A stretch of DNA of 64,000 bases from Candidatus Gastranaerophilales bacterium (GTDB taxonomy: Bacteria > Cyanobacteriota > Vampirovibrionia > Gastranaerophilales > Gastranaerophilaceae). The stretch lies in assembly GCA_944325555.1 (NCBI GenBank), contig CALVAN010000002.1, forward strand, positions 1-64,000, given 5' to 3'. Shown here piece after piece: positions 2,142-63,966 of the stretch (position 1 is the stretch's first letter; each line of letters starts with the position of its first letter). The position numbers and the translations under genes are program-made. The notes below the pieces were generated by a model that was given only the letters and a program-made list of their open reading frames with translations, was not told the origin of the DNA and searched no databases.

Positions 2142-3212
2142 ATGAAATTTTTTAGATTTTTGGTTTTAGTTTTTGTTTTGTCGGTTTCTATCACACATGT
2201 TTTGGCTAATACTGAAAATTTAACACCAAACACCTCTGTTGATACTTCGTTGGTAGTTCAGCAGCAAATTGCTGTTGAAAATGATAGCAACAAAGATAAT
2301 ATTGAAACGGATTTTACTGAATTGAAAGACAAAAATGTAACTATAGATGACAACTTGTATGATATTGTTGATCCTGCTTATCAAATACCTTCAGCACCAA
2401 GTGATGACACAAATGTTGAAGAAAAGCCTGGCGGCAGTGCTGTCGATGCTGTACTGACACCTGTAGGCTGGGCTATTGGCGGAGTTATTGCCCCTGTTTA
2501 TCTCGGCATTCAATTTAGCGGAGATGCAATTGCTTGGAGCATAGATAATGTTGTTGAACCTGTAGCCGGCGGTATAGCAAAGGGGATTTATTACGGTGCA
2601 ATTATGCCGGTTGGAAAAACTATAGAATGGAGCGTTGAAAATGTTGTTTCTCCGACTTTGGAAGGGATTGCCTGGGGGGCAGGAAAAACTTTTGATTATG
2701 TAATGATTCCGACGGCAAAAGGAATTTATTGGGCTTTGGATAAAACTTTTGATTATTCACTGGTTCCAGTCGCAAAAGGGCTTTATTGGACGGCTGACAA
2801 AACTTTTGATTATACAATAGTACCGACGGCTAAAGGTATATACTGGACTGTAGACAAAACTTATGACTATGTGCTTCTCCCTGCGGCAAAAGGTGTTTAT
2901 TACGGTGCTGATTTCGGGTTTGATTATGTTGTTGTTCCGTTTTCCAAAGGTATTTATCAGGGGGCTAAATTTATAGCGCTGCCTGTCGGTAAGAGTATTA
3001 TGTTCGGTGCAAAATATACGATTGTTCCCGCCGCAAAGGGTATCGGCTACGGTTTTAGTGCAATAGGCAGCGGTATTGAATGGAGTGTCGATAACATAGT
3101 GGAACCGGTCGGAGAAGGAATATGGTATGGTATCGACAGAACGCTTACTCCGATAGGCAATGCAATTGATACTGTTTTTGACGGAATTGTGTCGGTATTT
3201 GGTAATAATTAA
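2142..3212 (+). CDS. Secreted protein with 15/19-residue Pro-Lys-Gly-aromatic repeats
   Basis: The 356-residue protein is not a family I recognise. A signal peptide (about 1-22) is followed by an acidic, probably disordered segment (23-100) and then repeats to the C-terminus. Repeats have the form P-x-x-K-G-I-Y-W. Prolines at 171, 190, 209, 228, 247 and 266 are exactly 19 residues apart, while several flanking ones (266, 281, 296 and 322, 337) are 15 apart. The 19-residue form adds a DKTFDY-like insert. Glycines and aromatics alternate, which suggests an extended surface or membrane-contacting fold. It is monocistronic with its own promoter. Export is likely; function is unknown. Confidence 0.8.
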   Translation: MKFFRFLVLVFVLSVSITHVLANTENLTPNTSVDTSLVVQQQIAVENDSNKDNIETDFTELKDKNVTIDDNLYDIVDPAYQIPSAPSDDTNVEEKPGGSAVDAVLTPVGWAIGGVIAPVYLGIQFSGDAIAWSIDNVVEPVAGGIAKGIYYGAIMPVGKTIEWSVENVVSPTLEGIAWGAGKTFDYVMIPTAKGIYWALDKTFDYSLVPVAKGLYWTADKTFDYTIVPTAKGIYWTVDKTYDYVLLPAAKGVYYGADFGFDYVVVPFSKGIYQGAKFIALPVGKSIMFGAKYTIVPAAKGIGYGFSAIGSGIEWSVDNIVEPVGEGIWYGIDRTLTPIGNAIDTVFDGIVSVFGNN

Positions 3213-3322
3213 AATATTTAATTGCCGTTGCAGTGTATAGACTTATTTTTCTGTTATGTTAGACTGATTGTGGAAAATATTCCCTTTTATTTTATTGAAC
3301 AAACAAAAGGAGAACACAATTA

Positions 3323-4297
3323 ATGGAAAATAATAAACAGAGATGTGAAAATTGTATAAATTTTAGAAAAGTTGTAATGATAGGCTGCGGTTTTGTCGGT
3401 TCGGCAAGCGCTTTCAGTCTTATGGAATCCGGACTGTTTACTGAAATGGTTATGATAGATGCAAACCGTGAAAGAGCTGAAGGTGAAGCCTTGGATATTA
3501 ATCACGGGGTTCCCTTTGCAAGACCAATGAAAATCTATGCCGGTGATTATGATGATATCGAGGGGGCTTCTTTAATAATAATTACCGCCGGTGCAAACCA
3601 GCAGCCGGGTGAAACAAGACTTGACCTTGTTAAAAAGAATATTGAAATTTTTAAAACTATTATTCCCGAGATTTCAAAACGAAATTTTAACGGGATTTTG
3701 CTTATTGTTTCAAACCCAGTTGATATTTTGACATACGTGGCATTAAAATTAAGCGGACTGCCCAAAAACAGGGTAATAGGCTCGGGTACTGTTTTGGATA
3801 CCGCAAGATTAAAATACGAGATAGGCAAACATCTTGATGTGGACAGCAGAAGTGTTCAGGCTTTTATTATCGGAGAGCACGGCGATAGCGAAATTGCAGC
3901 CTGGAGTTGTGCTAATGTAGCCGGCATTGCTTTGAATGATTTTTGCGAGATGAGAGGTCACTATGACCATGATAGTGCAAATGCAAGAATAGCAAATGAT
4001 GTTAAAAACAGTGCTTATGAAATTATTTCAAAGAAAAAAGCTACATATTACGGCATTGCAATGTCTGTTAAACGTATTTGTGAGGCGATTGTGCGTGATG
4101 AAAAATCAGTGTTGCCGATATCATCTTTAATGTGCGGTGAGTACGGGCTGAATGATGTTGTGTTGAGTATGCCATCTGTGGTAGGCAAAAAAGGGCTTGA
4201 GGCACATGTTCCGATTTCTTTAAATCAAGAGGAGATTGAAAAATTACACAATTCCGCTAACACCCTGAAAGAAATATTGAAACAAAACGGACTATAA
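3323..4297 (+). CDS. ldh: L-lactate dehydrogenase
   Basis: The 324-residue protein reduces pyruvate to L-lactate with NADH, regenerating NAD+ in fermentation. The Rossmann motif GCGFVG is at 21-26, the substrate loop GANQQPGETR at 90-99 and the catalytic His in GEHGDSE at 186. A glutamine in the substrate loop (Q93/Q94) marks lactate rather than malate dehydrogenase, which has arginine there. AAAGGAG precedes the ATG. An unusual N-terminal extension contains C8 and C11 in a CxxC pair. The gene is flanked by its own leader and a strong terminator, so it is transcribed alone. Confidence 0.93.
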   Translation: MENNKQRCENCINFRKVVMIGCGFVGSASAFSLMESGLFTEMVMIDANRERAEGEALDINHGVPFARPMKIYAGDYDDIEGASLIIITAGANQQPGETRLDLVKKNIEIFKTIIPEISKRNFNGILLIVSNPVDILTYVALKLSGLPKNRVIGSGTVLDTARLKYEIGKHLDVDSRSVQAFIIGEHGDSEIAAWSCANVAGIALNDFCEMRGHYDHDSANARIANDVKNSAYEIISKKKATYYGIAMSVKRICEAIVRDEKSVLPISSLMCGEYGLNDVVLSMPSVVGKKGLEAHVPISLNQEEIEKLHNSANTLKEILKQNGL

Positions 4298-4313
4298 TTT
4301 TTCAAGAGAATCA

Positions 4314-4350
4314 AAAGCCGGCGTGTATATATTATTCGCCGGCTTTTTTT
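4314..4350. terminator. Bidirectional terminator between ldh and acsC
   Basis: A perfect 10-base GC-rich stem, 4314-4323 with 4337-4346, has T-runs on both strands and separates two converging genes. Confidence 0.85.
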
Positions 4351-4366
4351 ATGCAAACTTTTATAT

Positions 4367-5578
4367 TTATCCCTGTTTTAAAAATTCCGGAATCTGGCAG
4401 GCTTCTATCGTGCCCGTAACAATTTCCCATTCCGGCATTGCTTCTTGCAGCTCATCTCTCATGTGAGCAAGCAGCCCCGGGATAATAATTTTTCTTGTGT
4501 TGACTTTTTCTAAAAGACCGAAGTTTTTAACCGAACGGGCAACAAGCTCTGCCGTAAACTTATCCGCTGACCACGCCGTTAACACGCTCATTCCGTCAGA
4601 TGGTGTAACAACAAGATATGAGCCGAACGGCAGTGACTCCAGTTCTCCTGCAACCGCAAAATATGTCAGTGCAAAGTTTGTGGTCAAAAGTATGGGAGCG
4701 TTTTTGTCGGGTTCGTTGAATTCATATACTTTAGCCTCAACCTGCAGAGGTTTTTGAGGGTTAGTATAAATATTTTGCCGTAATGTAAAAATTGTTGATA
4801 AAAGTGCAGCGTCAAACACTGGCAAAACAAGGATGTTTGCGTATCTGCAAAGCAAAACCGATGCTGCTGCCGTTAGTTGAAAAATATCCCTATCATAAGG
4901 AAGTTTGACCATAACAGGGTATGTAAAAGGTTCGTGGCGTTTTATGATTGCAGCACGTCTGATAAATGTAAGCTCCTGTACAATATCTTTTAAGCTTTTT
5001 TTGTACTCAAGCTCAAGTATAATATCTTTTGCTCCCTGTTCAATGGCTTTAACCGAAGCTTTTTCCATTGATTCAAAGTCCGCTGCGCTCACAATTTTAT
5101 ACGTAGACATTGCGGAAATCACCGTAATTCCGGCAGCTTCAATTTTTTTTGTGGCTTTTTCAAGGTTGCTGCCTGTCAGATAAATTGCATCAACTTTGAA
5201 CTTTTCGCCTATTCTTTCAATTTCATATTTTGCAATTTGCTCAAGCTTTTTGTCAAAGTCTTTGTCGTCGGAATTAAGAGCAACAGCAATTACCGTACGG
5301 TTAACAAAGGTTCTGTCGTGGCGGTACATAACTGTTTCACCGCCTGTTATAAGAGAGTCTGATAATTTTATTTCGTGCTGTTGAATTTTTGAGGATTCCG
5401 CAAATTTTTCCTTAAGCTCCGGCGGAACATGAGGGCACTTTTCTATGTCAGCCTGCTTTTTGGCAAGCTTCAGTGCGTATGCCATGCAGGTGGGACAGCC
5501 GCATTGTTTGCAGTTTGTTCCTTCTGCTTTTTTTGCTCCCGGAAGATATTTAAAAATTTGCATACCTGTCAAATTCAT
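4367..5578 (-). CDS. acsC: Corrinoid iron-sulfur protein, large (gamma) subunit
   Basis: The 403-residue protein matches the AcsC/CdhE family, which carries a [4Fe-4S] cluster and a methyl-cobamide. The cluster ligands are C23, C26, C31 and C48 in the usual CX2CX4CX16C arrangement within GTNCKQCGCPTCMAYAL. A TIM-barrel domain and a C-terminal corrinoid-binding domain follow. In the Wood-Ljungdahl pathway this protein passes a methyl group from methyltetrahydrofolate to acetyl-CoA synthase. Its ATG shares one base with the acsD stop, so the two are coupled. No acsA, acsB or acsE lies nearby, so another methyl acceptor is possible. Confidence 0.85.
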   Translation of the reverse strand: MNLTGMQIFKYLPGAKKAEGTNCKQCGCPTCMAYALKLAKKQADIEKCPHVPPELKEKFAESSKIQQHEIKLSDSLITGGETVMYRHDRTFVNRTVIAVALNSDDKDFDKKLEQIAKYEIERIGEKFKVDAIYLTGSNLEKATKKIEAAGITVISAMSTYKIVSAADFESMEKASVKAIEQGAKDIILELEYKKSLKDIVQELTFIRRAAIIKRHEPFTYPVMVKLPYDRDIFQLTAAASVLLCRYANILVLPVFDAALLSTIFTLRQNIYTNPQKPLQVEAKVYEFNEPDKNAPILLTTNFALTYFAVAGELESLPFGSYLVVTPSDGMSVLTAWSADKFTAELVARSVKNFGLLEKVNTRKIIIPGLLAHMRDELQEAMPEWEIVTGTIEACQIPEFLKQG

Positions 5579-6486
5579 CAGTTTTTATCCCCCTTGAGTA
5601 ATGATTTGAGTGCTTCAACACTTTTGGGATTCCATAAAACAACAATGTCTGCGCCTGCGCTTATCATCGCAGATGCTCCTGCTATTTCCCACATAGCTGC
5701 TCTCTCTTTATAATCACCCCATTGTTCGCTAAAGGTATCGGATTTAGCCTCTTTTGCCCTGTAAGATTCTTCTCCGATGAAGGCAATCACCGGCATGTTG
5801 AGCATAGTGTCGCCGTCAAAAGCGGCCTGTCGAATTTTTTCAATAATGCTGTAGCCGTAATCAAGCCCATATCCAAGTCCGCCCATATCAGGGTCAATAA
5901 GAATCCTGTCAGGGCTGATTCCTTTGTCTATGGATAGAATATTCAACTCTTTTGCAAGGTTTATATCAATCGGGCTGCGCAAAACAAGAATATGATTATT
6001 TTTTGCAATGACTGGAACAATCTGTTCGTAGGTACTTTCCTGGGCAAAGGAAATAATGCATTCCTTTGGCGCAAATTCAGAAAGCAGCGGCAGCAGTTTT
6101 AAATCCACGGGGTCGTTGTTGGCCCCTCTCAGTATAAGAGGCTTTTGTATTTTTGATAAAGTATTTTTCAAGAAGTCTTTTATTTCTTCAAGATGGGAAT
6201 CTATATTATTCTCCGTAAGATTAAATTTTACGGAAATTATGTCAGCTTTTGAGTTTTCCGCATTTTTTAACATTTGCTCAATCGTTGAGCAGTTCCACTG
6301 TTCTTTTAAAACTTCGGGGTATGTGTTGTCCAAAATATAAGGGATTTCTATTGCAACAATGGGGTGAGCGTTATTGCCGTTTTCTTCCATAAAAGAGCGA
6401 GCGCTGTTCCCACCGATAGTTAAATCCCCGAGTTTTGTTTTTCTTATTTTTTCTTTAATGCCGAAAGACAGGTCTGATTTGTTCAT
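5578..6486 (-). CDS. acsD: Corrinoid iron-sulfur protein, small (delta) subunit
   Basis: This is the AcsD/CdhD-type TIM-barrel partner of AcsC. The DPDMGGLGYGLDY and MPVIAFIGEE segments are typical of the family. I place the start at the ATG ending at 6486 (302 residues). An upstream in-frame TTG at 6522 would fall inside the predicted -35 box. The promoter predicts transcription starting at or one base before the ATG, and no Shine-Dalgarno is visible, so translation may be leaderless. The stop overlaps the acsC start by one base. Confidence 0.85.
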   Translation of the reverse strand: MNKSDLSFGIKEKIRKTKLGDLTIGGNSARSFMEENGNNAHPIVAIEIPYILDNTYPEVLKEQWNCSTIEQMLKNAENSKADIISVKFNLTENNIDSHLEEIKDFLKNTLSKIQKPLILRGANNDPVDLKLLPLLSEFAPKECIISFAQESTYEQIVPVIAKNNHILVLRSPIDINLAKELNILSIDKGISPDRILIDPDMGGLGYGLDYGYSIIEKIRQAAFDGDTMLNMPVIAFIGEESYRAKEAKSDTFSEQWGDYKERAAMWEIAGASAMISAGADIVVLWNPKSVEALKSLLKGDKN

Positions 6487-6493
6487 AGATTTT

Positions 6494-6522
6494 ATATTAA
6501 AAAGTAAATGTATTGTTGTCAA
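6494..6522 (-). promoter_or_regulatory. acsDC promoter
   Basis: TTGACA (6517-6522) and TAATAT (6494-6499) are separated by 17 bases on the minus strand. The predicted start is about 6487, directly at the acsD ATG. Confidence 0.6.
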
Positions 6523-12642: not shown

Positions 12643-13164
12643 TTAAGCAAAGATGTTTACTATTTTTTCTTCCTGTTTTTCTTTGCCTTTGTTTGTGTTC
12701 ATTGAGAAGAAAGAGAACGGGTTAGAACCTCTTTTGTCTTTGTCTAATGTTTTAGCATTAGTCAATTCGACAGTTTGAGGGAGGTTGAAAATATTTTTTA
12801 CTTCTGATTTTTCGCCTTCAGCAACAGGAGCAATCATTTTACCTTCAACATTTTTTTGAACTTTTGTAGCATCTACTGCTGCCATTGTGTTCAGGTATTG
12901 AACGTTAGCGATAAAGTTTTGGTTTAAGTTGATATCAAGGCCTGCGTTTCTTACTGCAACAAATTTAGCAGTATCAATGTTTGTTCTCTGGCTGTATAAA
13001 TCGATACCTACTTCAGGTCTTCTGAATTTTGTTAAATCAACGTTAGTTAAATCGGAAGTTGTTGTTTTTGATTGTGCGTTTGTGAAAATCTGTTTTGCAA
13101 CTTCGTTGATTGCAGCTGTGTCGATGTAACCTTTGTTAGTATTTAATGTAACGCCAAGACTCAT
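12643..13164 (-). CDS. Hypothetical protein with NPF motif
   Basis: The 173-residue protein belongs to no family I recognise. There is no signal peptide or membrane segment. The N-terminus (MSLGVTLNTNKGYIDTAAIN) and middle are rich in Asn, Thr and Val and look partly disordered. Near the C-terminus it carries GSNPFSFF, an Asn-Pro-Phe motif shared with three other unrecognised proteins in this window. The gene has a GGGG-containing ribosome-binding site and its own strong terminator, and it diverges from ftsH. A secreted or surface-assembly role is possible but unproven. Confidence 0.75.
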   Translation of the reverse strand: MSLGVTLNTNKGYIDTAAINEVAKQIFTNAQSKTTTSDLTNVDLTKFRRPEVGIDLYSQRTNIDTAKFVAVRNAGLDINLNQNFIANVQYLNTMAAVDATKVQKNVEGKMIAPVAEGEKSEVKNIFNLPQTVELTNAKTLDKDKRGSNPFSFFSMNTNKGKEKQEEKIVNIFA

Positions 13165-27326: not shown

Positions 27327-27644
27327 TCATTTGCGTGTCATCGGCACTGCACCAAAATCTCTTGCAGAACCAAAATATGTCTGTTCCAGTACTCTTTGAA
27401 TGCTGTCGAGTTTACCATCTTTGTAAACTGGTTTGTATAAGTTATATACTTCAACTTTTACAACCGGTTCGGTGTTGTCATCAGATTTAAATGCCTGTAC
27501 AAATACATCTTTCTGGTAAATGGAACCCGGGTCATTTGCCAGTTTTTTAATTTTTTGTTTTGCTTTGCTTGTGCAAAAATTTTGTGCACTCTGTGTAAAA
27601 TAAACCCCTTTAAAACTTACGGGTGAAATTGCTTTAATGTTCAC
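27327..27644 (-). CDS. Hypothetical protein with N-terminal VSFKG motif
   Basis: The 105-residue protein begins MNIKAISPVSFKGVYF. It has no signal peptide or membrane segment; the middle is basic, and the C-terminal half could form a small beta sheet (VVKVEVYNLYKPVYKDGK). I do not recognise a domain. The VSF-x-G element near the N-terminus recurs in two other unrelated proteins of this window, which suggests a lineage-specific targeting or processing signal. The gene converges on dapB. Confidence 0.6.
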   Translation of the reverse strand: MNIKAISPVSFKGVYFTQSAQNFCTSKAKQKIKKLANDPGSIYQKDVFVQAFKSDDNTEPVVKVEVYNLYKPVYKDGKLDSIQRVLEQTYFGSARDFGAVPMTRK

Positions 27645-32112: not shown

Positions 32113-33528
32113 ATGGGTGACGGCGTAAGCTTTAATTCAGGTAACAAAGACAAATTTAAAGTAGATTTTAAGAAATTTTTTGATTTTAAAACATCTTATG
32201 CAGTAGAAACAACAATACCGGCAGTAGACCTCAACGGCAACGGCAACTGGGGACAAGTCGGTGACGGTTTTGAGCATAGCAATAACGGAGAAGTTAAAAC
32301 ATATTCAACACCAAGACAGGCTTACGGTACCGGTGCAACTCCTGCTGTATCAAATTCTACAGAAGGTACAGATAGCGCAATAGAAGAAGGAAATGCAGCA
32401 TTAAACAGCACTGACTCTAATCGTGTAGAAAATGCGTTAAATAATGTTAATCTTCGGGTGGCTTCGCCTGATTCTTCAGAACTGGTAAATGCTGCCAATA
32501 CTGAAGTTTCAAACGCTGAAGGCGTTGTGGCAACAAACGAAGAAGGCGTTGTAACAGCAACAGGTGAAAAAGAAGCTGCCCAAGGCGTTGAAGAAAATGC
32601 AACCGTAACGGAAGAGCAAAGTCAGACTAAAGTTGAAAAACAAAAAGCAGACTTGCAAACAAAGGAAACTAATTTGACAAAAGCAGAAGCCGCTGAAACC
32701 AAAGCACAAGCTAACGTTACAGCAGCAGAAGCCACTGTAACAAGTGCAAAAGCAAGTGTAGAGTCTGCTAAAGCTGCTGTTGAATCTGCTAAAGCCGGGC
32801 TTCCATATAGTGCCGCTGCCGTTGCAGCAGCAGAAGCAGCCCTTGCTGCTGCAGAAGCTGCATTAAAAACAGCAGAAGCAAAACTTGAAGTAGCAAAAGC
32901 AGAACTTGAAAAAGCAACAGCCGAAAAAGAACAGGCAACTGCTGAAAGAGATAAATCCAAAGCTCAACTTGAAAATGATGAAGAAGCTTTGAAAAAAGCT
33001 CAGGAAGCTCTTGATAAAGCAAAAGAAGATGTAGCTGCTGCCGATGAAAAACTTCAAAACGCTCAGCAGCAGTTAGAAACTGCCAAGGCAGATTTGGCAA
33101 CAAAAAAATCAGCTTATGAAGCAGTAAAAGGTAATATACAAAAAGAATCCTCTGATTTGAGCAAACAACTTGATGAACTTCTAAAAGATTTAGAAGAAGG
33201 TGAGGGTACTCAAGCTGCTTCTTCAGGAAAGAAAAATGACTGGTTAACAAAAGGACAAGCTGCAATGAACATCTTTAATCAAGGCGCAGGTGCTCTTGGC
33301 AGTTTGGCTCAAGGCAATGCAGCCGAAGCAGAAGAAGAAGGTTCTTCCAAACGTCCTATGACAGCAGAAGAAAAAGCTAGAATCTATGCTTTTACAGCAA
33401 ATCTTGAACAGTCATTAAACAACGGTTTTGGACAAATTACCTACAACGGACAAATGGTTTCCGATGTAAATAAAAACAATGGGGTAACAAATCCGTTTTT
33501 AAATAAGAAAAATCTTGAAGAAGCATAA
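32113..33528 (+). CDS. Ala/Glu/Lys-rich coiled-coil protein with C-terminal NPF motif
   Basis: The 471-residue protein has three parts: an N-terminal Asn/Gly/Ser-rich region (1-130, beginning MGDGVSFNSGNKDKF), a long alanine-rich heptad coiled coil (about 140-360) and a C-terminal segment with GVTNPFLNKK near the end. There is no Sec signal. The architecture suits a filament or a protein exported by a type III route, but I recognise no family. AAGAGAG precedes the ATG. It is followed by a strong terminator. Confidence 0.75.
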   Translation: MGDGVSFNSGNKDKFKVDFKKFFDFKTSYAVETTIPAVDLNGNGNWGQVGDGFEHSNNGEVKTYSTPRQAYGTGATPAVSNSTEGTDSAIEEGNAALNSTDSNRVENALNNVNLRVASPDSSELVNAANTEVSNAEGVVATNEEGVVTATGEKEAAQGVEENATVTEEQSQTKVEKQKADLQTKETNLTKAEAAETKAQANVTAAEATVTSAKASVESAKAAVESAKAGLPYSAAAVAAAEAALAAAEAALKTAEAKLEVAKAELEKATAEKEQATAERDKSKAQLENDEEALKKAQEALDKAKEDVAAADEKLQNAQQQLETAKADLATKKSAYEAVKGNIQKESSDLSKQLDELLKDLEEGEGTQAASSGKKNDWLTKGQAAMNIFNQGAGALGSLAQGNAAEAEEEGSSKRPMTAEEKARIYAFTANLEQSLNNGFGQITYNGQMVSDVNKNNGVTNPFLNKKNLEEA

Positions 33529-33980: not shown

Positions 33981-35204
33981 TTATGCAATGAGTTCTTGGA
34001 ACATATTTCTGATTTCTTGTTTGTTATTGTTGTCAGTTGTTCTTGCTGCTGTAGTTGACTGTTCATTTGCAGTTGCTGCTGCTTCAAGAGCTTCTAACAT
34101 ATTAGAGTAGCTGCCTGTATCATAAGAAACTGCTACGAACGGGTTAGTAGTTGCGGATACAGTTTCAACATCTTCACCTGTCATGTTATCTGAACCGGAA
34201 ACTTCATTTTCTGGTTGATTGTTATTAGGTCTGTTGTAGTCATAATCTGTATCATTGTTGTCGTAACCGTTGAGTTGGTTTTGAACGGAAGCGATTTCAG
34301 ATTTTTTATTTGAAATTTGCTGATTTAATTGAGCAATTTCATTATTAACAACTGATTGTTCGTCACCGATTTCGTTGATTTGAGTGTTGATTGAAGTTAC
34401 TTGTTTTTTCAAATTTTCATTTCGTTTAACTAAATCTTTGTTTTCATTAACAGCAGCGTTAATATTTTTTTCATAAGTTCTGATATTGTTTTGTCTTTGG
34501 TTGATTTGTTCAACATAGTTGTTAGATTCATCAATCAAACTTTTAACTTGGCTCATCATAGAGCTGATTGCAGAAAATTCAGAAGCGCTGGAAGCAAGAG
34601 AAGGATTTCCTACTTTGTTAGCTACGTATTGAGCAACTTCTTCTTGTGTCAACTCGCCTGCTTCAACTTTTGCGTTAGCTTCTTCAGTTGCTTCTTTGAT
34701 TTTTTTTGTTTCTTCATCAACGTTAGCTGCTGAATCTTCAAGAATTTTAGCGATTTTTTCGCTGATTTGTTGATTTAAGTTATCAACTTCTTTGTTTTTC
34801 TTGTCGTATTGTTCTTGTAATTTTTCTATTTCAGCTTCTTCGAGTTCAATTTTTTCTTGGTTTTCTTTAATTTCTTCTTCGTTTTCTTTGATAGCTTCAT
34901 TATTTGCTTCAATTTGTGCATTGAGTGAATTTTTTTGAGCTAATAAAGCTTTGATTTGAGATTCCAATTCTTTGTTATAAGACATTTTTTCTGCTTTTTT
35001 TGCAATAAGCTCATCGAGTTCAGCTTGCAATTGAGCTAATTGAGCTTCCAATAAAGCTCTTTCTTCGCTTTTTTTAGCTTCTTCAGCTTCAGAAGTTTCT
35101 TCAGTGCCAAACAAACCTGTTGTATCTTCAGCTGGAGCAGTAGAACCGGATGTTCTTGAAGTTCCTTGAGTATTATTTACACCATTGATACCAGTAATTG
35201 TCAT
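33981..35204 (-). CDS. Coiled-coil protein with NPF motif
   Basis: The 407-residue protein begins with a Thr/Ser/Asn-rich, disordered segment (MTITGINGVNNTQGTSRTSG) and has two long coiled coils (about 40-160 and 225-315). A hydrophilic Asn/Asp linker follows and then SATTNPFVAVSYD near residue 355. There is no signal peptide. It resembles the protein at 32113 in plan but not in sequence. Lack of a Sec signal, the flexible N-terminus and the coiled coils are compatible with a type III export substrate; this is inference only. It has its own terminator. Confidence 0.75.
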   Translation of the reverse strand: MTITGINGVNNTQGTSRTSGSTAPAEDTTGLFGTEETSEAEEAKKSEERALLEAQLAQLQAELDELIAKKAEKMSYNKELESQIKALLAQKNSLNAQIEANNEAIKENEEEIKENQEKIELEEAEIEKLQEQYDKKNKEVDNLNQQISEKIAKILEDSAANVDEETKKIKEATEEANAKVEAGELTQEEVAQYVANKVGNPSLASSASEFSAISSMMSQVKSLIDESNNYVEQINQRQNNIRTYEKNINAAVNENKDLVKRNENLKKQVTSINTQINEIGDEQSVVNNEIAQLNQQISNKKSEIASVQNQLNGYDNNDTDYDYNRPNNNQPENEVSGSDNMTGEDVETVSATTNPFVAVSYDTGSYSNMLEALEAAATANEQSTTAARTTDNNNKQEIRNMFQELIA

Positions 35205-45969: not shown

Positions 45970-47982
45970 ATGAAAGTATCTTTTTACGGTACATCATTTA
46001 ATCCGCTAAATCAGGATAAAAACAATAAAAAAACTACAGATAAAAAAGCTCAGCAAACTCCCGTTCAAAAAGCGGTGACAAAGGCTAAAACAGGTGCGGT
46101 TATAGGATTATTTTTATTACCGACACTCGGTATTGTAAAACACTGTTCAACTGATAATGACCCCAACAAAATTGTAATTGTTGATGAACCTGCCGATACA
46201 ACACAGCGTGCAAAATATGTTGATACAACGGATGCAACATTTTATGTTGTTCAATCAGGTGATACTCCTGCAGGTATTGCAAAAAAACACGGAATTTCTA
46301 CAAGAAGATTGCTCGCAAATAATGCAATGAACGCTGAGGATGTTATTTACCCGAAAGATACCCTTTTGATTCCGCAATCTTATAAAGCAAAAAATATCGA
46401 AACCCTAAAAGATGTGGCTAAGATGTCCGGTATTAGCACTGATTATCTTGAAACATTAATAGGTTTTGAACAATTACATAACACCATATATAAAGACAGA
46501 AATAATAATGAAACAATAGGTATAGGACACCTTGTAAAACCTGACGAAAGACAGCTTTACAGAGGCAAAACTTTGAACGAAGCCGAGGTCTATACATTGC
46601 TTGCTCAAGATATACTTGATATTGAAGCTGATTTGCAAACATTGATTAAAGAAGATGCTTATAAAAATATGCCGGCTCATTTAAAGGAATCCGTTTTTGA
46701 CCTTGCTTTTAACAAGGGAATAGGTGCAGTCAGCGATAACGAAAAACTTTTAAAAGCGTTGAATGATGAGGATTATCCTGTTGCTGTCGCAAATTTAACT
46801 CAGGATTATTCAGTTGTAACAAATGCCAAAGGCGAAAAAGTTAAAAAGCCGGCTGCCGGTTTAAGCAAACGTCGTTTGTATAACATCGGTAATGCTTCCG
46901 AAATCTTTAAAAACGGAATGCCTGATGTTGTTGCGGATTCTGCTAATGCCGTATATAACAGAGGGTTGAAATACCTTGAAGCCGAAAAAAACAGAGGCGA
47001 AATTTCAGCAGAAGCTTATGAAAATGTTGTTAAGGAATACAAAAATCTTGCACACGAGTGGACGGACGGACAGCTCGGCATAAAAGGGAAAAGAACTGCA
47101 AAGACAGACAACACAACAGCTACGGCTGTAAAATCTTCGGATAATTCAAAAACTATTTATGTAAACGGTGAAAAAACAAATTGGACAGTTAACTCTTTAT
47201 ATGAAGACTGGGAAAAAACCGCTAAAAGACAATTGCGTTATGTCAAACGTCCGATGCCTCAGGTAGATAAAAACGGCAATATTACTGCTTATGTAAAAAC
47301 ATTTGCGCCTACGGGAAAAGGCAAACTCTCCGGACATACAATTATCATTAACCCCGGACACGGCGGAGCAATGAATGTTAAACAAAATGACGGAACACTT
47401 AATGTAAACTTTGACCCCGGTACAAGCAATGCCGTTATGAGCAAGAAAAATCCGAACGTTGAAACTAACAAATTTATAGGTAACGGCGGAAAATCGTTGG
47501 AAGAATGGGTTGTAAACCAGAGAATTGCGGATGAACTCGTCAAAAAAATAAACAAAGAAGGCGGTAAAGTTATCTATGTACAGGGCTCTGTTTACAGCGC
47601 AATGAAGGCAATTAGAAATATTGAAGCAAAAAATAAAATAGATCTTTTTATAAGCCTTCACAGCAATTCTAGCGGCGGCAAAAGAGGCATTCACGTTTAT
47701 GCAAACAACAGAGGCGGGCTGGATAAAAAAGATGCGGAACTGGCAAAAAACATTGTTGACCAACTCAATGAACACAGCTGGTTTAGAGGTATCACTGAAC
47801 AAAAAGCAAAATCCCTCGGCGTTTTGTCGTCAAGTGCATCTAAAACATCGCCTGTACCGGGAGTGCTTATTGAAACCGGCGACTTGAAAAACGAATCCGA
47901 TGTTGCAAACCTGAACTCAAGAGATTTCAAAAATCTTATGATAGACGGAATACTTGAAAGTATAAAAGATTACTTAAATTAA
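45970..47982 (+). CDS. LysM, GH24 lysozyme and amidase fusion protein
   Basis: The 670-residue protein combines two peptidoglycan hydrolases. A cytoplasmic-looking N-terminus (MKVSFYGTSFN, 1-40) and one membrane segment (about 41-58) are followed by LysM (91-136) and a phage-lysozyme-type GH24 domain with E167, D176 and T182 at the exact E-x8-D-x5-T spacing of T4 lysozyme. A linker leads to an Amidase_3 domain with INPGHGG, the ISLHSNS zinc histidine, and a catalytic Glu in VLIETGD. It should cut both glycan strands and stem peptides, for example in division or envelope remodelling. AAAGG precedes the ATG. Confidence 0.88.
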   Translation: MKVSFYGTSFNPLNQDKNNKKTTDKKAQQTPVQKAVTKAKTGAVIGLFLLPTLGIVKHCSTDNDPNKIVIVDEPADTTQRAKYVDTTDATFYVVQSGDTPAGIAKKHGISTRRLLANNAMNAEDVIYPKDTLLIPQSYKAKNIETLKDVAKMSGISTDYLETLIGFEQLHNTIYKDRNNNETIGIGHLVKPDERQLYRGKTLNEAEVYTLLAQDILDIEADLQTLIKEDAYKNMPAHLKESVFDLAFNKGIGAVSDNEKLLKALNDEDYPVAVANLTQDYSVVTNAKGEKVKKPAAGLSKRRLYNIGNASEIFKNGMPDVVADSANAVYNRGLKYLEAEKNRGEISAEAYENVVKEYKNLAHEWTDGQLGIKGKRTAKTDNTTATAVKSSDNSKTIYVNGEKTNWTVNSLYEDWEKTAKRQLRYVKRPMPQVDKNGNITAYVKTFAPTGKGKLSGHTIIINPGHGGAMNVKQNDGTLNVNFDPGTSNAVMSKKNPNVETNKFIGNGGKSLEEWVVNQRIADELVKKINKEGGKVIYVQGSVYSAMKAIRNIEAKNKIDLFISLHSNSSGGKRGIHVYANNRGGLDKKDAELAKNIVDQLNEHSWFRGITEQKAKSLGVLSSSASKTSPVPGVLIETGDLKNESDVANLNSRDFKNLMIDGILESIKDYLN

Positions 47983-59143: not shown

Positions 59144-59812
59144 TTAATAACCGTAATGTTCGTGCGCAACAAGATATTCTCTTACGTGATTAAGAGCTGC
59201 CTGAACAATTCTTGTAATACGTGAGGAAGATAACCCTACCTGCTCTGCAATTTCTTTAACCTGCATGTTTCTGTAAAATCTGTATTCTACAACAAGCCTG
59301 TCTTTTTGCGGCAGAGTAGCAATAGCTTCTCTTATAGCTTTACCAAGCTCGCTGATTTCAGCTTTTTCATCAGGAAGAGCATGTGGATCTTTGATAAAGT
59401 CAAACGGGGAATCGTTATCTGATGATGCGGCAGCTATTGAGTCAATAGAAAGAATTGTTTCATAAATAGCTTCTCGTACTTTTCCCGGTGAAACATCCAG
59501 TGCGTCATCAGTTCCTGCTGCTTCAGCTGTTTCTGCATCAGTCTTGTGTTTTAATGTGTACCATTTATATCTGTTTCTGAGCTCATTTCTTATTGCCCAT
59601 CTAACAGCCGTAGAAATATAAGAGGTATTGTATTTCTCAAGCTGTTCGGGTGTTTTATTTTTAATCATTGCCTGAACAGCAATAATACCAATGGAAACAA
59701 GTTCTTCGTAATCCACCATGTGCGAAGGTATGCGCCTGTGCTCAACCTTGGCTACTTTTTCCACTATTGAAATGTACTCTTTAATTTTATTTTGAGAAGC
59801 GTTATTAATCAT
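59144..59812 (-). CDS. Sigma-70 family factor (FliA-like), paralog 2
   Basis: The 222-residue factor shows region 2 (YISTAVRWAIRNELRNRYKWY-type block, near 70-92) and region 4 with VKEIAEQVGLSSSRITRIVQ. The gene starts two bases after flhB, so it is probably co-expressed with a flagellar-type export gene, supporting a FliA-like role. No FliA-type promoter was noticed in this window. A paralog lies at 45124-45780. Confidence 0.88.
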   Translation of the reverse strand: MINNASQNKIKEYISIVEKVAKVEHRRIPSHMVDYEELVSIGIIAVQAMIKNKTPEQLEKYNTSYISTAVRWAIRNELRNRYKWYTLKHKTDAETAEAAGTDDALDVSPGKVREAIYETILSIDSIAAASSDNDSPFDFIKDPHALPDEKAEISELGKAIREAIATLPQKDRLVVEYRFYRNMQVKEIAEQVGLSSSRITRIVQAALNHVREYLVAHEHYGY

Positions 59813-59814
59813 GA

Positions 59815-60921
59815 TTATCTTCTGTCACTTCTATCACTCATCTTAGTATTTATATTACTAGGTTTTTTAGAATTTCGCAAATTATATACAAATAATAAGA
59901 TTTCTGCCACGGCTTTATACAAATCAGGCGGGATTTCTCTGTTAACATCAACCAGTCTGAAAAGTGCACGTGCCACCGGCGGGTTTTCAACAACCGGCAC
60001 GCCGTGTTCTCTTGCTATTTCTATAATCTTTTTGGCGAAAAGCTCGGTACCTTTTGCCACAAGTTTGGGGGATTCCATTGTTTCCTGATCATATTTTAAT
60101 GCGCAGGCAACATGGGTTGGGTTTGTAACAACAAAATCCGCATCCGGAACTGCATCCATCATCCCCTGCTGCATCATCTGCTGGCGGCGCTGGCGCAGTG
60201 CAGCTTTAACGTTCGGGTCACCTTCGGTGTTTTTATATTCGTCTTTTACTTCTTTAAAAGACATCTTTTGATCTTGTAAAAACTTCCATCTCGTCATACC
60301 GTAATCGGCTGCTGATATAATAAGGAATGCAATGCTGGCTTTTATAACAAAGTCCATAATCAAAGCACCGAATTCTTGCATAACTGCAAAATGGTTGTCC
60401 ATTGCAGCCAGACCCAATATTACCTCAAAATGCGAGCTGTAAACAGACCATCCGACATAGCCTAAAATAACAACCTTAATAATGTTTTTTACAAGCTCAA
60501 ACAGCGTTTTTACGGACATTAAGTTTTTGAAATATTTTGTGGGGTTTAGCTTGTCGAGCTTTGGTGCAAGAGGTGTAGTAGTAAATAACGGACCCACCTG
60601 AATAAAATCACCGATAATTGCAATAAACATTGCCAGAGCAAGTATCGGACCGATAATTAAAATTGTCGGGACAAGTGTTATAAACAAAAGATATGGCATA
60701 CCTATTGCTTCTAAATGCTGGTTAGGTATTTGCTCGTAACACAATACAAAAAGTCGGGAAATTTGGTCAAATATAAACGGAGCCAGTTTTGCTATGGCAA
60801 AAAACATAACTATCATCGCAATAGCAGTTGAAAAATCTTTGGACTTTACAACCTGGCCTTCTTTTCTTGCTTTTTCCAGTTTTTGGTGAGATGCCTCAAA
60901 CTGCTTATCTTCATCACCCAT
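59815..60921 (-). CDS. flhB: Flagellar/type III export switch protein FlhB
   Basis: The 368-residue protein has four membrane helices (between about 30 and 205) and a cytoplasmic domain with the self-cleaving NPTH at 267-270. The N-terminus QFEASHQKLEKARKEGQV is typical of FlhB. The cleaved domain controls which substrates enter the export apparatus. It could belong to a flagellum or a non-flagellar type III system; no hook, rod or other flagellar gene is in the window. It is the first gene of a flhB-sigma-kinase group. Confidence 0.92.
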   Translation of the reverse strand: MGDEDKQFEASHQKLEKARKEGQVVKSKDFSTAIAMIVMFFAIAKLAPFIFDQISRLFVLCYEQIPNQHLEAIGMPYLLFITLVPTILIIGPILALAMFIAIIGDFIQVGPLFTTTPLAPKLDKLNPTKYFKNLMSVKTLFELVKNIIKVVILGYVGWSVYSSHFEVILGLAAMDNHFAVMQEFGALIMDFVIKASIAFLIISAADYGMTRWKFLQDQKMSFKEVKDEYKNTEGDPNVKAALRQRRQQMMQQGMMDAVPDADFVVTNPTHVACALKYDQETMESPKLVAKGTELFAKKIIEIAREHGVPVVENPPVARALFRLVDVNREIPPDLYKAVAEILLFVYNLRNSKKPSNINTKMSDRSDRR

Positions 60922-62326: not shown

Positions 62327-62508
62327 AGTATTTCTCCTGTCCCGTAAATATTTTTACACTTTTATTAAAATTTCGCATACGCAGTTCAGGTGATTTTTGC
62401 AAATTGCATCTTAACAAAAATTAATAATGTATTATAATAATCATGACAGAATGTAAAAAATCCGTATATTTTTAATTGTTAATAAATTAGGTGTGTGAAA
62501 GGACTGTT

Positions 62509-62754
62509 ATGATACAAAATCTATTAGGTTTAATCTCAAAAACATTGACCCCGCAGCAAACTACGGCTATTACATCTGTTCGTCCCGCTTTGGCTAATCC
62601 GTTTGCGGCTCCTTCAACCAATCCTTTCATGCAAAATACAACGCTTTCTTCAAATTTTTACGGTAAAAATCAGCCTGTAAGAGGCGGCTATTTTGCAGGA
62701 TATTATAACGGAAAACCCAATATCGTCGGCAGAAAATTATTTGTAGAAGTTTAA
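62509..62754 (+). CDS. Small protein with two NPF motifs
   Basis: The 81-residue protein starts MIQNLLGLISKTL and carries RPALANPFAAPSTNPFMQN in the middle, giving two Asn-Pro-Phe motifs. The C-terminus is glycine- and aromatic-rich (GGYFAGYYNGKPN) and ends VGRKLFVEV. I recognise no domain. The ATG at 62509 follows AAAGG by six bases; the upstream frame from 62491 is not needed. The repeated NPF motif links it to three other unrecognised proteins of this window. It has no signal peptide. Confidence 0.65.
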   Translation: MIQNLLGLISKTLTPQQTTAITSVRPALANPFAAPSTNPFMQNTTLSSNFYGKNQPVRGGYFAGYYNGKPNIVGRKLFVEV

Positions 62755-62769: not shown

Positions 62770-63966
62770 TTAGTTTTCTGACTTTTCTGCCCCTTCTGAA
62801 TTTTTGAGAGCTTCAAGCTCTTTTAAAATTCCCTGATTAATTTCCAGAACATCAACCCCGAGATTTGCCAGAACCTGCATAGCAACGGAATCCGGTGTTT
62901 GTGTAATAGCCCATAGAAGGTTTTCTGATTCGATTTTGGAATTTTTATGCTTTTTGGCTTTTTCCCAGGCAATTTCCAGAATCTTTTTGGCTCTGTCGGA
63001 AAATACAATCTCGCCGAAAGTATAGGAGTTTCCGTAGCCGAGTACTCTTTCAACCTCTATACGTGCATCTTTTGTTGTAACCCCCAGTTGAGAAAGTACT
63101 CTTGCACCGATACCGGCACCTTCTCCCAGTATGCCGAGCAGTATAAACTCGCTGCCAACGATATTACGGTTCATCGACTGAGCCTCTCTTTTGGCAAGAC
63201 GTAGTATAGTAAGGGTTTCCGGCATTTGTTTTTCTATCGGTTTTATGATTTTGTGTGCAAGGTCATCATCAACAATATTCAACTCTTTAAATATATTGTA
63301 GGCAATACCGCTTTTTGCCTTTAAAACGCCGAGGATAATATGTTCGGGTTTTACGCTGGCAGACCCGAGTTCTTTTGCTGTTTCAAATGCAAGGAGCATT
63401 GTTTTAAAAGCATTCGGGGTAAAGATGATTTGTTTTTCTTCAAATTCCGCTTGGCGGGAAGAAATTTCCTGCAGCTTTGAACAGTAATTATCAAGATTGA
63501 TGCCTGACTCATTCAAAAGCTTTGTTATGTCGGAATTAGAATCTTCAAGTATGGATTGAACAATTTGTTCAGTGCCCAAAATCTCGTAATGTGACGCAGT
63601 AAGCTTTGCAACGGCTCGCTCAAGTATAGATTGCGCTTCTTCCTCTTTAAAAATGGATTGAATAGTGGAATACTCACTTTTCGGCTCTTTCCTTTCCAGT
63701 TCCGGATGTAGCATATTGCGTTTGTCATTTTTTGCAATAAGTGTTAAGAGTGTTTGTTTTAATTTTTTAATATCTGCTATGTATTCTTTAAAATCTTCCG
63801 CAATTGAAGGAACTGCTTTTTCGCCAATCATAATTAAAGCAAGCAGTATATGTTCCGGTCTTATATAAGATTTTGTACGTTTGGTTGCAAGCTCTGAGGC
63901 TAATTTGATGATTTTTTGAGATTCTATGCTGAAGGCAATATTTGTGTGTTTAAACTCATGCGACAC
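62770..63966 (-). CDS. Stand-alone Clp N-domain repeat protein
   Basis: The 398-residue protein consists of about four Clp N-terminal (Clp_N) repeats (roughly 10-85, 105-175, 190-265 and 265-390) and no AAA+ module. The third and fourth are close to ClpC N-domains (SVKPEHIILGVL; NRNIVGSEFILLGILGEGAGIG and ARIEVERVLGYG). Such proteins could act as adaptors or competitors for Clp substrates, as plant and cyanobacterial ClpT-like proteins do. The gene is complete, starting 34 bases from the right edge. Confidence 0.8.
   Translation of the reverse strand: MSHEFKHTNIAFSIESQKIIKLASELATKRTKSYIRPEHILLALIMIGEKAVPSIAEDFKEYIADIKKLKQTLLTLIAKNDKRNMLHPELERKEPKSEYSTIQSIFKEEEAQSILERAVAKLTASHYEILGTEQIVQSILEDSNSDITKLLNESGINLDNYCSKLQEISSRQAEFEEKQIIFTPNAFKTMLLAFETAKELGSASVKPEHIILGVLKAKSGIAYNIFKELNIVDDDLAHKIIKPIEKQMPETLTILRLAKREAQSMNRNIVGSEFILLGILGEGAGIGARVLSQLGVTTKDARIEVERVLGYGNSYTFGEIVFSDRAKKILEIAWEKAKKHKNSKIESENLLWAITQTPDSVAMQVLANLGVDVLEINQGILKELEALKNSEGAEKSEN

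Follow-up and report, generated by a model that had tools for sequence, protein, structure and literature searches.

A conserved Asn-Pro-Phe motif in three protein families of Gastranaerophilales as a candidate docking motif

Three unrelated protein families of Gastranaerophilales keep an Asn-Pro-Phe (NPF) tripeptide beside sequence that changes too quickly to be aligned, and the residue that follows NPF tends to be the same kind in all three. We consider it an even proposition that NPF plus an aliphatic residue serves as a short linear docking motif displayed on flexible segments, with an 81-aa family (P0002) acting as a membrane adaptor and two coiled-coil families (P0001 and P0004) perhaps entering the same pocket. 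Few examples are known of a docking motif common to unrelated bacterial proteins, and cell-biological knowledge of the uncultured Gastranaerophilales is scarce. The window analysed here is a stretch of 64,000 nucleotides from a 2.32-Mb genome of this order (formerly Melainabacteria), and the nearest named relatives of this genome are metagenome assemblies of the same order.

Results

NPF occurs five times in the window, in frame each time, and in exactly 4 of the 60 tiled open reading frames (ORFs); the other 56 have none (Table 1). The original prediction that [S/T/A]NPF links four unrecognised proteins was therefore borne out, and searches of Pfam and NCBIfam with the four gave no meaningful match except a generic coiled coil. 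Its further remark that recognised enzymes do not carry the motif is correct for the window and wrong for the genome, in which ordinary proteins elsewhere, such as pyruvate phosphate dikinase, an S1-domain protein and FliG, have NPF. As had been proposed, none of the four shows a hydrophobic Sec-like N-terminus by hydropathy: the highest value over 12 residues was 0 to 1.5, compared with 2.3 to 3.1 for the Sec-type proteins of the window. Separately, a protein combining LysM, lysozyme and amidase domains (45970-47982, start MKVSFYGTSFNPLNQ) has no evident Sec signal.

Table 1 Coordinates of the NPF proteins and their features in the window.
Feature	Position	Strand	Remark
P0003, 173 aa	12643..13164	-	Order-level family; ORF named in the original prediction
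P0003 conserved patch DKDKRGSNPF	12715..12744	-	K-D-K-x-G-S-x-P invariant in the order-level alignment
P0003 NPF	12715-12723	-	In frame
P0001, 471-aa coiled-coil protein	32113..33528	+	Genus-wide; convergent neighbour of P0004
P0001 C-terminal NPF, VTNPFLNKKN	33490..33498	+	In frame
P0004, 407-aa coiled-coil protein	33981..35204	-	Genus-wide
P0004 conserved C-terminal 54 residues, start NPF[VL][AS][IV][SA][YF]	33984..34145	-	After unalignable linker
P0004 NPF	34137-34145	-	In frame
P0002, 81 aa	62509..62754	+	N-terminal amphipathic helix, tandem-NPF linker, conserved C-terminal block; order-wide single-copy family
P0002 predicted amphipathic helix, residues 1-13	62509..62547	+	Hydrophobic moment
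P0002 first NPF, ANPFA	62596..62604	+	In frame
P0002 second NPF, STNPFM	62620..62628	+	In frame
P0002 conserved C-terminal block YGKNxPVxGGYFAGYYNGKPNIVGxRLFIEV	62659..62751	+	

The motif is not unusually frequent. Across 837 ORFs, which comprise 257,743 residues or roughly one third of the genome, we counted 28 NPFs against 25.3 expected from composition, and the five permutations of the same letters occurred 14 to 38 times each. The raw motif is thus ordinary by the measure put forward with the original prediction, a count against composition; the excess it implied was not confirmed, and we rejected bulk enrichment as an argument. A genome-wide pattern count of 62 for NPF versus 32 for the reversed pattern was also set aside, because the control was not codon-matched and many matches fell outside reading frames. 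Lack of bulk enrichment does not rule out selection on a motif, and conservation alone can reveal it.

The 81-aa family P0002 provides the clearest case. Its start is the ATG at 62509 according to its homologues, not the upstream GTG at 62491. In a phylum-wide sample, the family was present in 172 of 173 genomes of the order, with weaker matches in five genomes from other families of the same class and none detected in the remaining sampled genomes of the phylum. No described family or solved structure matched it in Pfam, NCBIfam or PDB sequences, and on the strength of these searches P0002 is an undescribed family that is practically universal in the order. Its C-terminal block is nearly invariant across the order, whereas the linker changes. 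NPF was nevertheless kept in the linkers of 32 of 33 divergent representatives (members below 75% identity), with 58 copies in total; shuffling the linkers gave 1.06 NPF-bearing sequences on average and a maximum of 6 in 2000 shuffles. Linkers have one to three copies at variable spacing, the sole exception carries NSF and NIF at the two NPF places, and NPF persists in four members belonging to other families of the class, within linkers that cannot be aligned. Residues 1-13 had a hydrophobic moment of 0.54-0.68 in six members from the order, a value reached by at most 0.5% of shuffles, and the structure model places a helix at residues 3-12 with low confidence (mean confidence 51). This N-terminal amphipathicity was not seen in two members from outside the order. 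Shared gene neighbourhood was rejected as a clue to function, as the neighbours of P0002 vary among genera. In the window, the gene is convergent with that of a 398-aa protein with four Clp_N repeats (PF02861) and no ATPase part (62770-63966); the two were not adjacent in the other genera checked.

The distribution of the coiled-coil proteins P0004 and P0001 is essentially limited to the genus, and their few weak matches elsewhere are at the level of the coiled coil. In P0004, the N, P and F columns are 100% identical, compared with mostly 15-45% for the preceding 30 columns, and NPF was found in 17 of 17 divergent orthologues when shuffles predict 0.15. In P0001, the motif starts 8 to 13 residues before the end, in a low-complexity tail, and was present in 13 of 17 divergent orthologues (0.14 expected from shuffles); some of those lacking it carry NNLF or INFF. 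NPF is spelled with 8 to 10 different codon combinations per conserved family, demonstrating that the protein sequence is what selection keeps.

P0003, the protein for which the motif was originally pointed out, behaves differently from these three. Within the genus-level set NPF does not vary, but several relatives in other genera have GSSPS, GSNPS or GSHPF, among others, and only K-D-K-x-G-S-x-P is invariant around the site in the order-level alignment. As judged from these alignments, the NPF of P0003 is the least conserved of the four, decaying to GS-x-P outside the genus, and on present evidence P0003 should not be grouped with P0001, P0002 and P0004. In its structure model (mean confidence 55), the site falls in a low-confidence C-terminal region, and this model and that of P0002 are too low in confidence for a meaningful comparison of folds. 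A C-terminal [IM]F ending common to P0003 and P0004 was considered and rejected, as 11 of the 837 ORFs fit, most of them unrelated.

We next compared the residue that follows NPF. Val, Leu, Ile or Met occupied this position in 26 of 32 P0002 sequences (last NPF; Fisher p = 0.005), 16 of 17 P0004 sequences (p = 0.001) and 10 of 13 P0001 sequences (p = 0.055), each compared with 9 of the 21 NPFs found elsewhere in the genome; these p values are indicative only, as the representatives are related by descent and independence is overstated. When P0002 has a pair of NPFs, the first is followed by Ala, Ser, Gly, Asn or Glu and never by one of the four aliphatic residues (0 of 22), so the two copies may act differently. 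The pattern suggests one type of site common to P0001, P0002 and P0004 and a second type special to P0002.

Further candidates were found elsewhere in the genome: the C-terminus of L126, L142, L111 (NPFNPF) and L151 (two SNPF). The L111 protein (2951-6502; G000:C1, about 171 kb) has 1183 residues; NPFNPF stands close to its N-terminus, and by eye its C-terminal part resembles a calpain-type protease, with no Pfam match. Two paralogous 62-aa proteins (L122, 3337-3525; L146, 3055-3243) begin with TNPFANYTL and end with FLGATRFGTN[YF]IA. We set this pair aside because their NPF is genus-wide and absent from order-level relatives; other families of the order keep the C-terminal motif and not NPF. 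A C-terminal likeness between P0002 and the 62-aa proteins was also abandoned, as a pattern scan gave no further members. Separately, SFK[G/A] or [N/P]FK[G/A] recurs in low-complexity N-termini (27327-27644 in the window, and other ORFs), at residues 5-35 in 17 of 708 ORFs versus 2 at residues 105-135; a few of the 17 are ordinary enzymes, and this may be another lineage-specific tag.

Discussion

For P0001, P0002 and P0004, NPF is conserved beside unalignable sequence, its copy number varies, the following residue is shared and no Sec-like N-terminus is present. The conservation and the shared following residue support the suggestion in the original prediction that the motif could be a binding tag for these three families, with the exclusion of P0003. 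We infer a protein pocket that reads NPF, one reader shared by the three families, and contact of P0002 with the membrane. The amphipathic helix of P0002 would rest on the membrane, the linker would offer NPF in one to three copies and the C-terminal block, which is conserved, would provide a second contact, so that the protein would serve as a small adaptor; P0001 and P0004 would each present a single NPF near the C-terminus and may enter the same pocket. The membrane-resting adaptor is plausible, the helix being predicted within the order and not in the two members outside it. Several observations weigh against docking: NPF is not over-represented genome-wide, no EH domain was detected in 26 relatives, the first NPF of a P0002 pair is never followed by Val, Leu, Ile or Met, a quarter of the divergent P0001 orthologues are missing the motif, and the NPF of P0004 opens a conserved C-terminal domain and could belong to the fold of that domain.

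This last point leads to the alternative that we take most seriously, although we would adopt it only tentatively: each family uses NPF independently as a piece of local structure, for instance a beta-turn or a helix cap at the edge of a conserved domain, and there is no common reader. The conserved 54-residue domain of P0004 is what such a reading would lead one to expect, as are the 62-aa proteins of the genus, in which NPF directly precedes a conserved, helical-looking segment and is missing from order-level relatives, and P0003, which retains only GS-x-P outside the genus. However, the NPFs of P0002 and P0001 sit in low-complexity linkers with changing spacing, and P0002 has one to three of them, which a fixed element of a fold would not readily tolerate. 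Independent use also does not account for the following residue being common to different families.

Docking could extend to a wider bacterial NPF network. In it, a pocket protein of Gastranaerophilales that is not related to the EH domain would bring together several unrelated proteins, and the 81-aa family would be the core adaptor, bound to the membrane; we regard this as speculative and rather unlikely. As a route to binding partners, the NPF motif of the 81-aa family can be synthesized as a peptide and used as bait.

Chance is a poor explanation overall. Four NPF proteins per window is about what composition gives, and these four might have drawn attention for being unannotated; the genome-wide count and the ordinary enzymes with NPF both fit this. 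The conservation of NPF in P0002, P0004 and P0001 relative to shuffles already contradicts it for three families; the NPF of P0003 may nonetheless be a chance occurrence.

We also find it very improbable that NPF directs proteins to FlhB, the flagellar-type export gate, as an export or sorting signal, a possibility at which the original prediction hinted. All four NPF proteins are without Sec-like N-termini, FlhB is encoded 1.6 kb from P0002 in the window, and in six further genomes of the genus an flhB gene is found 3-15 kb away from the P0001 and P0004 genes; we treat this proximity as a lead rather than as evidence for export. Known type III signals are N-terminal, whereas the NPF motifs are internal or C-terminal, and the neighbours of P0002 differ among genera. 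The proposed co-occurrence of NPF proteins with FlhB gave no contrast in either direction: FlhB was found in 58 of 59 relatives and P0002 in 56, and with FlhB nearly universal the comparison is uninformative. P0002 occurs equally in ten genera of the family in which FlhB but no flagellin was detected, and is thus independent of the filament.

The genus itself has two FlhB genes and several flagellins. The FlhB of the window (within 59144-60921) is the copy that was kept, at 70-77% identity, in all six genera checked in which flagellin was not detected (loci L285-L290); five of these six still have the same FliA-like sigma factor after it, and L287 also carries a rod/hook-like protein. A filament-less export machine may be retained at this locus in flagellin-less genera. 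MEL.A1 was previously reported to lack filament genes (PMC3787301).

Mimicry of host ligands, with exported proteins binding to the EH domains of Eps15, intersectin or EHD, whose ligands are NPF, seems far-fetched: STNPFM and TNPFL resemble known EH ligands and the order is largely gut-associated, but an export signal is absent, members of other families of the class likewise have P0002 with NPF, and P0002 behaves as a single-copy core gene rather than a host-adaptation gene.

Searches of open-access papers gave no description of NPF as a docking motif in bacteria, and a search for the EH domain (PF12763) gave no match in 26 relatives; prokaryotic control genomes gave none either, so the sensitivity of this search is unproven. 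Among known systems, sortase-type sorting signals (LPXTG, NPQTN) resemble P0001 in having a short Asn-Pro motif near the C-terminus; unlike in sortase-sorted proteins, the N-terminus of P0001 is not Sec-like and no hydrophobic stretch follows NPF. The C-terminal tail of SSB and the C-terminal peptide of FtsZ are bacterial linear-motif hubs in which a short conserved peptide follows a fast-evolving linker, as NPF does here. The differences are that the NPF sequence is another one, that it has several unrelated carriers, that it is internal in P0002 and that the hub is still a candidate. The nearest functional analogue of the docking reading is the eukaryotic EH-NPF system. Ligands of EH domains carry NPF in disordered segments, often in several copies, frequently with Ser or Thr before it and an aliphatic residue after it. 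They have been described as NPF motifs (PMC2238750). As in the network of Eps15, epsin and EHD, NPF lies here in flexible segments, in linkers and tails that do not align; unlike in that network, it is carried by bacterial proteins unrelated to one another, and no solved structure is related to P0002 in sequence. If the wider NPF network exists in Gastranaerophilales, it would form a bacterial counterpart to the EH-NPF system of eukaryotes.
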